Below are positions 462 through 26,030 of a DNA stretch of 26,601 nt, piece after piece. The position numbers and the translations under genes were made by a program. Within the stretch, counting starts at the first letter, position 1, and the number at the start of each line of letters is the position of its first letter. The DNA is from a virus. Location: IMG/VR virus record IMGVR_UViG_3300005613_000353, positions 1 to 26,601 of that record; one strand, given 5' to 3'. The notes beneath the pieces were generated by a model, which ran no database searches, was not told the origin of the DNA, and was given only the letters and a program-made list of their open reading frames with translations.

Positions 462-1829
462 TTAGGATACAGGATGTTGATAACTATGTGTTTCACCTAA
501 ATTTGCGTTGTTTCCAATACCGGTACTATGCCCGATATGTTCTGACGATTGTCTGCCCACGGAGTAGCCCAGATGGGTACTGGCATTCACGCTGTTCATG
601 GCACTGGCCGCGAGCTGGGCCGCAACATTGGCATTGCCTTCAGCTGCCCTTTCCTGGAGTGCTAACGACCCCAGATAGGAATTCAGCACCATCTCCGCCT
701 CTTTCAAGCTCAAATTCGTCTGGTTGGTGGCCTGGGTAATTTTTCCTTCATACTGCTTGATCTGGGCCTCCAGCACGGCAACGGCCACCTTTGCATCTGC
801 TTCATATCCTGCGACCTTAAAGCCGTATACCTTTGCCACGCTCTCTACAATTCCCAGCTCCTGGGCCAGATCCGCCTTGAACTTTTCAACCTCCGCTCGA
901 AACACCTCAACCTTTTGCCGGTTATTATTAATCTGAATATTGGCCTTGATCTCTTCAACCATGGCCTCGGTGCGTGTCGCCTCCATATAGGCCACGTATG
1001 CGGCAACCTTTGCATTGTAGGTATTGATGATGACATCAGCGGCGGCACGGGCTTTTTCAAAGGCACGCTGGGCGATCTGGTTGGCAAACTGCTTTTCGAT
1101 CCCTTCCAGATTGACCGAGGTGGTCAGGACATGCTGGGTATTGTTTTGGGCAAGACGGGCCTGCTCGATCATGATCTCATAGTTGATCTGTTCATCTGCC
1201 CGGGTCTGCTCTTGAAGCGCCTCTTGCAGGCGTCCGGCCAGTGCCCCGGGCGGCATAGTAAAGCCTCGGGCGGCAAAGAATTCCAGGGCCTCGTTATAGG
1301 TGCGTTCGTTCACGATCTCCAGGCGTGCCCGTGCCCGTTCCCAAATGGCGTCTTCCACATCAGCCCCCAGGCCGGTGCCGCCGTTCTCTACATAGTTCTT
1401 GAGTGCGGTCTTCACGGCATCGATCAAATCCGAGCTATAGGCAGGCTCGTCAAAAGAAAAATCCGTTTCCACGTCCCCGAAATCCGATGACGGCACGGTA
1501 ATAGTCGGGGCGGTAACCTCGGCAATATCCGGCAGGCTGGGCGCATTCACCTCGCTTGCCGCAATCGTTGGGGCCTCGGGCCGCTTGGATTCGATTTCCG
1601 TGGTCAGGGCATCTTCCACAAAGGAATAATCGATATCTGTTTCAGGCATTTGTGCATTCGCAAATAGGGCGGATAATACGCCAAGATAGGCCTGTGCCTG
1701 TTGATAGGCATCACCTGAATAATTCTGGGCCTGTTCAAATTTCTCTTTTGCCAGATCAAGGGCGGTCATTGACGGATATACTTTTGTGGGGTATATCGGG
1801 CTTAATGTCGGTATTGTTACAATTGACAT
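462..1829 (-). CDS. Long helical virion-like protein
   Basis: This 455-residue protein starts at MSIVTIPTLSP, where AAGGAGG sits just upstream. The frame stays open 22 codons further, but that extension only translates an intergenic repeat element. Residues 20-80 are helical. Residues 85-125 form a Pro/acidic linker rich in APTI/APSLPD motifs. Residues 130-400 are almost wholly alpha-helical, Ala/Glu-rich and likely coiled coil, with an ARGFTMPPGALAGR motif at 187-200. The C-terminal 50 residues are Ser/Asn/Gly/His-rich and probably disordered. I recall ARGFxxPPG-type helical proteins in environmental phage tail gene blocks but cannot name a function. An internal virion or tail-associated protein is the best inference. 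Confidence 0.85.
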   Translation of the reverse strand: MSIVTIPTLSPIYPTKVYPSMTALDLAKEKFEQAQNYSGDAYQQAQAYLGVLSALFANAQMPETDIDYSFVEDALTTEIESKRPEAPTIAASEVNAPSLPDIAEVTAPTITVPSSDFGDVETDFSFDEPAYSSDLIDAVKTALKNYVENGGTGLGADVEDAIWERARARLEIVNERTYNEALEFFAARGFTMPPGALAGRLQEALQEQTRADEQINYEIMIEQARLAQNNTQHVLTTSVNLEGIEKQFANQIAQRAFEKARAAADVIINTYNAKVAAYVAYMEATRTEAMVEEIKANIQINNNRQKVEVFRAEVEKFKADLAQELGIVESVAKVYGFKVAGYEADAKVAVAVLEAQIKQYEGKITQATNQTNLSLKEAEMVLNSYLGSLALQERAAEGNANVAAQLAASAMNSVNASTHLGYSVGRQSSEHIGHSTGIGNNANLGETHSYQHPVS

Positions 1830-24313: not shown

Positions 24314-24538
24314 CTATTTTAAATTTCTATTAATAGCAGGATCAAGTTTCTCTTTTAATAGCAATATAGCGGCGAGAATCCCTTTTGCATGTTCTTTTTT
24401 TTCTTTCCTGATAAACATTTCTCTTTTCAATCTTAAACTACTAATCGCCGTTTCTATTGCTCCTACCCACACATCATAGCTGCTTAATGTATTTTGTTCG
24501 TCATACGCTAACGTTTCATACCAATCATCAAATGTCAT
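24314..24538 (-). CDS. 74-aa hypothetical protein coupled to the antirepressor
   Basis: MTFDDWYETLAYDEQNTLSS, then two helices (WVGAIETAISSLRLKREMFI and AKGILAAILLLKEKLDP). Its ATG overlaps the antirepressor stop (ATGA). The balance of acidic N-terminus and basic middle suggests a small helical adaptor. No recognised family. Coupling to the antirepressor suggests it works in the same switch. Confidence 0.7.
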   Translation of the reverse strand: MTFDDWYETLAYDEQNTLSSYDVWVGAIETAISSLRLKREMFIRKEKKEHAKGILAAILLLKEKLDPAINRNLK

Positions 24539-25392
24539 TTTTTTATATCTCCATAGCTATACCCATCCAGCATATCCTGCCGCAGCCGGATACCATCCAG
24601 ATGATACTTGCTGTTCTTCTTTACAATCGTGGTGATCCCATCAAGCACCTGCTCTAATTCATGATAAAACATATTGCGTGTCATAGCCAGCATGAATTGT
24701 TTACTGCACCATCCCCGGTAAATTTTATACAGTAAAATAAAAGGCGTCATGCCGCCCGGCTCAATCACGCAAAACGTTCTTACAAAATTACGTATTGCCT
24801 GATAGTCGCTATCCATATCCTCGCACATCTGCTGTACATACTCTTCCGTGGCAGAACGCTCATTCTCATGGCCAATCATGCCTAATGTCTGCTGCGCCTT
24901 CATCTCTTTCATGCGCTGGCCCATATCATCCAAACTTTGAGCAAATCCTCTCTGGATATTCTTGATTTGCCCGAGCATCTCATTCATGTGCTCCATAATC
25001 AGTATCCACTTTTCCTCAAGGGTATCCTGCCGCTCCATAATGCGGCGATGATCGTCTTTGGACATAAACACCGCATTGCTCTCCTTCAGCCGCCGTTCGC
25101 ATTCGATGAAATACCGCCGGGCCTCTTTTTCCTTTTCATTGCGTTCTACCATCGCCAATTCCTTGGCCATAGAGATACTTATATGATAATCGATCTTATG
25201 GTCGCTTGCCGAAATGGGCAAGCGAATAAAATCTTGTCCTTCATGAAAGTCATATTGCCGTATTCTATCTTTTATCCAATTAGCAAAAAACTTCCCAACC
25301 TTCAAAAATTCATGCAATTCTCGCGCATTCACCGTCTGCCGCATCTCATTATCTATTGTATCAAAGCTGATAGCCAATAAATTCTGTTCCAT
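24535..25392 (-). CDS. AntA/AntB-type antirepressor with an unusual C-terminal domain
   Basis: 285 residues. Residues 21-55 (VNARELHEFLKVGKFFANWI, then RQYDFHEGQDFI) and 68-105 (DYHISISMAKELAMVERNEK then ARRYFIECERRLKE) are the AntA/AntB antirepressor domain known from phage P1 and related phages. Residues 115-165 are coiled coil. Residues 204-270 (FVRTFCVIEPGG, FILLYKIYRGWCSKQFML, YHLDGIRLR) resemble the winged-helix domain at the C-terminus of D5/P4-type primases. AGGAGG precedes the ATG. Antirepressors bind and disable phage repressors; the C-terminal part may bind DNA or the partner. The gene lies downstream of the structured leader. Confidence 0.78.
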   Translation of the reverse strand: MEQNLLAISFDTIDNEMRQTVNARELHEFLKVGKFFANWIKDRIRQYDFHEGQDFIRLPISASDHKIDYHISISMAKELAMVERNEKEKEARRYFIECERRLKESNAVFMSKDDHRRIMERQDTLEEKWILIMEHMNEMLGQIKNIQRGFAQSLDDMGQRMKEMKAQQTLGMIGHENERSATEEYVQQMCEDMDSDYQAIRNFVRTFCVIEPGGMTPFILLYKIYRGWCSKQFMLAMTRNMFYHELEQVLDGITTIVKKNSKYHLDGIRLRQDMLDGYSYGDIKK

Positions 25393-25440: not shown

Positions 25441-25806
25441 TTATTGCTTCTTCCCGCCTTTAATACTCACTACATTCCTCGGCGCCTCTGCCGGTTCAAA
25501 CCGGGCATTGATCAAGGCGCTGTCGACCGATGTATCCATTTCAGTATACAGGGCTTCTCCTACCACCCTGCCGCAGTGCTTTGACGTGTAATCGTCCCAT
25601 CCTGAGGCCTGCATCTTCACATTTTCCGTCAACCGCTGCCCGATCAATCCGAGCCTGCACAATTGCGGATTCTCTGCTACCTGGCCCATACTCCAGATCA
25701 TATCAAAGAACGACCAGATAGATTCAAGCCCTAACCCGATAATATCAATCAAATACACCATTTCTCTCCTCTGCCCCGGTATGTCCTTCATCTCTTTTTC
25801 TGCCAT
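25441..25806 (-). CDS. 121-aa protein controlled by a structured leader
   Basis: MAEKEMKDIPGQRREMVYLI starts at an ATG with AGGAGG six bases upstream; the frame extends 11 codons further but that part lies in the leader. Residues 19-42 (IDIIGLGLESIWSFFDMIWS) are hydrophobic, amphipathic rather than clearly membrane-spanning. The middle is QNPQLCRLGLIGQRLTENVK-like helical, the end is basic (NVVSIKGGKKQ). No family recognised. Being first after the leader and directly before the antirepressor, it is probably part of the lysis-lysogeny or host-response switch. Confidence 0.75.
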   Translation of the reverse strand: MAEKEMKDIPGQRREMVYLIDIIGLGLESIWSFFDMIWSMGQVAENPQLCRLGLIGQRLTENVKMQASGWDDYTSKHCGRVVGEALYTEMDTSVDSALINARFEPAEAPRNVVSIKGGKKQ

Positions 25807-25994
25807 GATAATCCTCCTGTATTTTAGTGATATGGGCATAAAAATAGCCCGACTGTCACTAACGCTACAGGAGCGTCCAGGCCGTCACCGAATCCTGGTC
25901 AGTCAGGCTATATTCTTCGCCCAAAAACAAAATCACCCCTTTCGCGACCATTACTGGACCCGCGGGCTGGAGCAAACCCCTGTATTTTAGTGAT
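25807..25994 (-). promoter_or_regulatory. Structured 5' leader RNA, riboswitch-like
   Basis: On the minus strand a three-way junction can form. P1 pairs 25900-25909 with 25846-25855 (10 pairs, one G-U). P2 pairs 25894-25898 with 25877-25881 and is capped by CG-GUGA-CG, a GNRA tetraloop. P3 pairs 25872-25876 with 25862-25866. A competing hairpin pairs 25847-25871 with 25816-25837 (CCTGTA/TACAGG, TTAGTGA/TCACTAA, GGGC/GCCC) and covers half of the AGGAGG at 25813-25818. The two folds cannot coexist. Further upstream another stem (25943-25964, CGCG/CGCG with CCA-GTAA-TGG) has a GNRA loop. I match no known riboswitch class. Confidence 0.55.
25817..25832 (-). repeat. TATCACTAAAATACAG direct repeat, copy next to ribosome site
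   Basis: An exact 16-base copy of 25980-25995. Its inverted relative TCACTAACGCTACAGG is at 25856-25871. This copy is the 3' arm of the competing hairpin. Confidence 0.8.
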
Positions 25995-25995
25995 A
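25980..25995 (-). repeat. TATCACTAAAATACAG direct repeat, copy at transcript start
   Basis: This copy overlaps the predicted transcription start, six bases after the -10 element, as an operator would. It is identical to 25817-25832. Confidence 0.8.
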
Positions 25996-26000
25996 GCTTA

Positions 26001-26030
26001 CCCATACCAAAATCGTTTCTCATTTGTCAA
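26001..26030 (-). promoter_or_regulatory. Sigma-70-type promoter of the leader
   Basis: On the minus strand TTGACA (26025-26030) is followed after 18 bases by TATGGG (26001-26006), preceded by TGG, giving an extended -10. The -35 is a consensus match. Transcription would start near 25994, about 190 bases before the 121-aa start codon. Confidence 0.65.

Follow-up and report, generated by a model that had tools for sequence, protein, structure and literature searches.

Why should one phage leader be able to form two mutually exclusive folds from the same bases, one of which covers a ribosome-binding site? The question arises on the minus strand at 25806-25995 of a 26.6-kb viral fragment (the window), which comprises the 26,601 nt of IMG/VR virus record IMGVR_UViG_3300005613_000353 and whose relatives are metagenome contigs. 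A sequence-only reading had described this leader as a riboswitch-like element of no known class.

The reading preferred here, with a probability of roughly 0.87, is that the leader encodes a C4-type antisense RNA, a class defined by a separate small RNA of ~77 nt that represses in trans. Such RNAs are a known kind of lysogeny switch, and the family in question is absent from Rfam. The assignment draws on structure, covariation, a duplicated target, exact and co-changing complementarity, and operon context, all of which are legible in the DNA itself.

Fold of the leader

With an energy model, the minus strand of 25806-25995 folds at -62.8 kcal/mol (z = -2.24), and 3 of 200 shuffled sequences fold equally well. 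Helices P1, P2, and P3 of the three-way junction described earlier are all present in the minimum-energy fold. The RNA core is placed at 25844-25911 (minus strand) by this fold, by covariance model matches, and by compensatory changes. Helix P1 comprises 12 pairs (25911-25900 with 25855-25844) rather than the 10 first counted, helix P2 consists of 5 bp, a 2-nt bulge, and 3 bp closed by the GUGA loop already noted, and helix P3 has 5 bp. The strand assignment also stands, because the wobble U25905-G25850 in helix P1 would become A-C on the opposite strand.

The alternative long hairpin, likewise proposed before, is real, and both folds are stable. In the 237-nt leader the junction fold reaches -72.4 kcal/mol versus -71.9 kcal/mol for the hairpin, which was computed by requiring pairs between 25862-25856 and 25830-25824 and between 25873-25866 and 25821-25814, at a cost of 0.5 kcal/mol. 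In the hairpin, the P3 loop and J3/1 are paired with 25830-25814, and the AGGAG of the ribosome site is covered.

Antisense patches and duplicated target

Two patches within the junction are complementary to sequences on either side of it. Patch a' (UUAGUGA, 25856-25862, minus strand) occupies J3/1 and is antisense to TCACTAA, as supported by complementarity and a shuffle test. Patch b' (CUCCUGUA, 25866-25873, minus strand) comprises the P3 loop with its flanks and is antisense to a Shine-Dalgarno sequence, with co-change as additional support. Together, they form the exact antisense (7 + 8 nt) of UCACUAA-AA-UACAGGAG, where UACAGGAG is the target of the second patch in both copies. This composite target occurs twice, directly 3' of a TTGACA promoter-like site and across the Shine-Dalgarno sequence of a 121-aa gene. 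The upstream copy, a1b1 (25977-25993, minus strand), consists of TCACTAA at 25993-25987 and TACAGGGG at 25984-25977, and is complementary to J3/1 and the P3 loop. The downstream copy, a2b2 (25814-25830, minus strand), consists of TCACTAA at 25830-25824 and TACAGGAG at 25821-25814; it overlaps the AGGAGG of the 121-aa gene, and b2 itself includes the AGGAG. This overlap supports the predicted control of the ribosome site, as the sequence-only reading had put forward. The two folds use common bases because the RNA, in the manner of C4 RNAs, includes sequences antisense to its own target.

The two copies form a direct repeat with 17 identical nt (25995-25979 and 25832-25816) on either side of the junction. 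A mobile insertion between these repeats was considered and rejected, the repeats being the a1b1 and a2b2 targets.

The promoter-like site at 26001-26030 (minus strand) was read from the sequence as TTGACA (26030-26025), 18 nt, and a weak -10 element, TATGGG (26006-26001). A consensus scan for promoters and terminators gave neither a promoter nor a minus-strand terminator at the leader. At the other end of the RNA, a U-tract (25840-25844, minus strand) adjoins helix P1, so P1 could serve as the stem of an intrinsic terminator.

Homologous RNAs and covariation

A direct DNA search found no relative. The exact P3-J3/1 DNA pattern gave three matches in viral contigs, all in unrelated repeat-like sequence, and a P2 pattern search gave none. 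As no relative was found at the DNA level, phages with the window's terminase were collected. Five homologous RNAs (L240, L246, L262, L315, and L318) were identified in phages with a related terminase, all keeping the order of TTGAC promoter-like site, a1b1, junction, U-tract, and target. In 6/6 members, the RNA is preceded at a distance of 98-122 nt by TTGACA or TTGACG, and 4-9 U directly follow helix P1, the five relatives having 7-9 U at this place.

L240, whose terminase is 57% identical to that of the window, carries the same RNA type directly before an AntA gene. In a two-sequence MAFFT alignment with the window, 43 of 44 pair cells are kept and seven pairs are changed on both sides. A covariance model of these two sequences (R1) recovers L246 (E = 3.3e-6) and L262/L264 (E = 0.016); it gave no further matches in 0.67 Mb, and none in 0.53 Mb of AntA loci, including the many that bear C4 or sRNA-Xcc1. 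A four-sequence model adds L315 (2.2e-17) and L318 (1.6e-12). None of the five relatives has a match in Rfam.

The alignment of all six members has 96.8% of cells paired and 11 pairs with double changes, a result equaled by 0/500 shuffles; it was fitted to the structure, which favors pairing, whereas the MAFFT alignment of window and L240 was not so fitted. Controls with slid alignments fall to 28-43% paired. Covariation in related phages, approached through a covariance model, thus bears out the structure first drawn by eye.

Antisense patches and targets change together. When matches are summed over the six members, only the true assignment (1/720) reaches the observed score, and each RNA's own downstream and upstream sites match better than those of the other members. 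L246 is the weak case, with a downstream match of 5 nt. In L318, for example, a' UUGAUUU faces AAATCAA and b' CUCCAUAGG faces CCTATGGAG, with an AntA-like gene directly downstream. Across the relatives, the helices and a GNRA-like P2 loop are held in common, and the variable parts are exactly the target-pairing P3 loop and J3/1.

Several smaller features accompany the RNA. A 52-aa open frame (25865-26023, minus strand) overlaps the core. By eye, a short frame starting from or near AAGGGG before the RNA often has its stop in the P3 loop (window, L240, L262, L315, and phage P1 c4); such a frame could be a leader peptide or chance. Within the interval from a1b1 to the RNA (25916-25975, minus strand), inspection by eye finds a stem-like element, CCCGCG ... 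CGCGAAAGGGG, common to the window and L318, and phage P1 likewise has a hairpin between a1b1 and c4.

Downstream genes

The predicted direct target is the 121-aa gene (25441-25806, minus strand), which stands in the place of P1 icd and for which protein searches found no relatives. The second gene downstream of the RNA is the antirepressor (24535-25392, minus strand), in which a domain search found an AntA domain (PF08346, E 2.5e-24) and, in the C-terminal part, a weak match to Pox_D5. The leader does therefore precede an antirepressor, as had been proposed. A search of genomes for the window's AntA subfamily found no relatives, and the closest AntA relative, L012 (40%), is without a comparable leader.

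Downstream genes vary within the family. The L262 RNA is followed by a Bro-N gene with a C-terminal part similar to that of the window AntA protein, and the gene after the L246 RNA also appears Bro-N-like by eye. The L315 core (1501-1582, minus strand) precedes a 77-aa ORF, after which comes an HNH-like frame; the stretch examined contains no antirepressor, so a small effector gene, comparable to P1 icd, may be the direct target. In this group of phages, AntA and Bro-N antirepressors have a C-terminal part in common, with a weak Pox_D5/primase-like match; it is seen in the window gene, in L240 (2531-3679), and in L262 (828-1649).

Tests against chance

The descriptor applied here requires a three-way junction in which the P3 loop and J3/1 are complementary to a ribosome site farther downstream and also to a copy of that target upstream. 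In its full form it is passed by 0/10,000 dinucleotide shuffles of the leader, and a summed a and b match of at least 15 nt arises in 1/10,000 (13 nt in 21/10,000). Over ~80 AntA loci, several of them near-duplicates, the strict descriptor yields 45 matches on the gene strand versus 3 on the opposite strand apart from the window. In 266 kb of shuffled DNA it has 0 matches. On the gene strand of another AntA set, some of whose loci are also in the first, it gives 24 matches versus 0.

Competing explanations

The rival that survives best is a switch or attenuator acting only in cis, in which the junction with its U-tract terminates transcription or leaves the Shine-Dalgarno sequence free, and the hairpin of a'b' with a2b2 closes it. 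Because the two folds of the window are nearly isoenergetic, such action is possible, and the position of the U-tract directly after helix P1 in every member is in keeping with it. However, a1b1 is kept in all six members and would be needless for a simple attenuator. The layout also equals that of phage P1, whose C4 is known to act in trans (PMC5320573, PMC12197685), and the cis hairpin is worse than the junction by 6.5-8.7 kcal/mol in phage P1 and by 2.8 kcal/mol in L240. An exclusively cis-acting device is hence improbable.

A ligand-binding riboswitch, as first suspected, would make the junction an aptamer and let a metabolite shift the balance with the Shine-Dalgarno-covering hairpin. Two exclusive folds over a ribosome site invite this idea, and antisense copies of the RNA's own target explain the shared bases instead. 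Whereas a ligand core should be conserved, the unpaired P3 loop and J3/1 differ among members in step with the target, and the relatives have only helix positions and the P2 loop in common, without a large invariant unpaired core. No Rfam riboswitch matches either, and we consider this explanation very improbable. Equally hard to credit is an unused chance fold or remnant, lying between direct repeats (e.g., the flanks of an inserted element) or within a short coding frame, since the 17-bp repeats on both sides and the 52-aa frame that speak for it are outweighed by the compensatory changes, the shuffle test, and the element order kept in six phages.

Proposed mechanism

The promoter position and the antirepressor are in line with C4 logic, as are the extra target copy a1b1 and the antisense/target pairs that change in concert. 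From this arrangement we infer transcription, RNA release, trans pairing, and an effect on AntA. Transcription from a promoter at approximately 26030-26001 would run through a1b1, the junction, a2b2 with the 121-aa gene's ribosome site, and finally the AntA antirepressor. Release of the junction RNA would follow, probably via termination at the U-tract after helix P1, a step proposed from sequence alone. Once free, this RNA would bind a2b2 in trans via the P3 loop (b') and J3/1 (a'), hiding the Shine-Dalgarno sequence. The 121-aa gene would be shut, and the antirepressor too, by polarity or coupling. With the antirepressor off, lysogeny would be favored and the phage would gain its own immunity specificity.

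A single stem might even operate the whole switch. Helix P1 as a terminator would free the antisense RNA; if a'b' instead paired with a1b1 while the transcript was being made, the junction would open and transcription would read through into the antirepressor. This extension is tentative, and we lean against it. If true, the decision between repressor RNA and antirepressor mRNA would fall within one folding transcript, unlike in the RNase P-cut P1 C4. On the preferred reading, the window and its relatives represent a C4-type antisense family new to Rfam, in uncultured phages, with a terminator-like end replacing the known processing signal.

Further candidate C4-type loci

The descriptor defined above detects C4-type RNAs independently of sequence similarity. 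Matches to sRNA-Xcc1 (46) and C4 (14), found by covariance model alone, were tested for downstream a'/b' matches. A total match of at least 12 nt is present in 57/60 of them versus 13% of mismatched pairs; by this test sRNA-Xcc1 (RF02221) is therefore a C4-type RNA, with an upstream copy and co-change of loop and target. It has been treated as a virulence-linked sRNA (PMC2996969, PMC12189769, PMC12444791), and the literature on it, incompletely covered here, yielded no statement tying it to C4. In Xanthomonas integron cassettes it is reported to lie upstream of symE (PMC12444791), which would be its likely direct target if sRNA-Xcc1 is C4-type. An RNA studied as virulence-associated is thereby tied to antirepressor-type control and gains predicted nearby targets.

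Matches to sRNA-Xcc1 are located at L006 1014-1100, L008 1884-1967, and in L171-L230. One phage record (L016, 2365-4450) holds four tandem units of sRNA-Xcc1-type RNA and target, each with its own loop/target specificity. Rfam isrK lies directly upstream of C4, at the place expected for a1b1, in L041 (1411-1490), L051 (2255-2337), L133 (3789-3865), and L135 (2744-2819); isrK may in part be a C4 leader. Other junctions with a'/b' matches occur before AntA genes or other starts (L056 2386-2455, L101 780-862, L050 1011-1093, and L076 2379-2461). They have no Rfam match at gathering and are possible additional C4-type families.

Comparison with known systems

Searched against all of Rfam at gathering and at E <= 10, the window gives chance matches only (SNORA71, U6, and eiav_FSE). 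At E <= 10 it is matched by none of the models for C4 (RF01695, gathering cut-off 45 bits), sRNA-Xcc1 (RF02221), and c4-2 (RF02944); phage P1 scores 68.8 bits with C4 in the same test. The earlier view that the leader belongs to no known class hence holds for the sequence family and fails for the mechanism, which would be that of C4.

In phage P1, C4 has three stem-loops, is cut by RNase P from a longer transcript, carries a b' that partly covers a ribosome site, and acts in trans (PMC5320573, PMC12197685). The P1 annotation runs a1, b1, c4, a2, b2, icd, ant. Like C4 of P1 and P7 (RF01695; target copy c4-a1b1, RF03163), the window RNA has a three-way junction with a' in J3/1 and b' in the P3 loop, target copies upstream (a1b1) and across the ribosome site (a2b2), and a small gene and an antirepressor downstream in identical order. 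Unlike P1 C4, which ends in CCACC, it has a U-tract flush with the P1 helix, which suggests a different route for its 3' end. A longer helix P1 could begin at GGGC, and the RNase P-made 5' end of C4 expects a GGW start (PMC5320573). Further differences are that a2 and b2 of the window are nearly contiguous and that its antirepressor has an AntA domain, with which P1 Ant1 aligns poorly (16% identity).

By the test above, sRNA-Xcc1 resembles the window RNA in having a junction whose a'/b' can pair with a ribosome site downstream and with its copy upstream, and it too often precedes AntA genes; the two differ in backbone. The c4-2 family is named after c4 in Rfam, and its covariance model has no match in the window at E <= 10. 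The sar RNA of phage P22 is transcribed from the strand opposite its own target, whereas the window RNA is encoded upstream of its target on the same strand and would pair through two short patches. Like sar, a small antisense RNA that blocks antirepressor translation (PMC12197685), the window RNA is predicted to be a small antisense RNA that acts against antirepressor expression.
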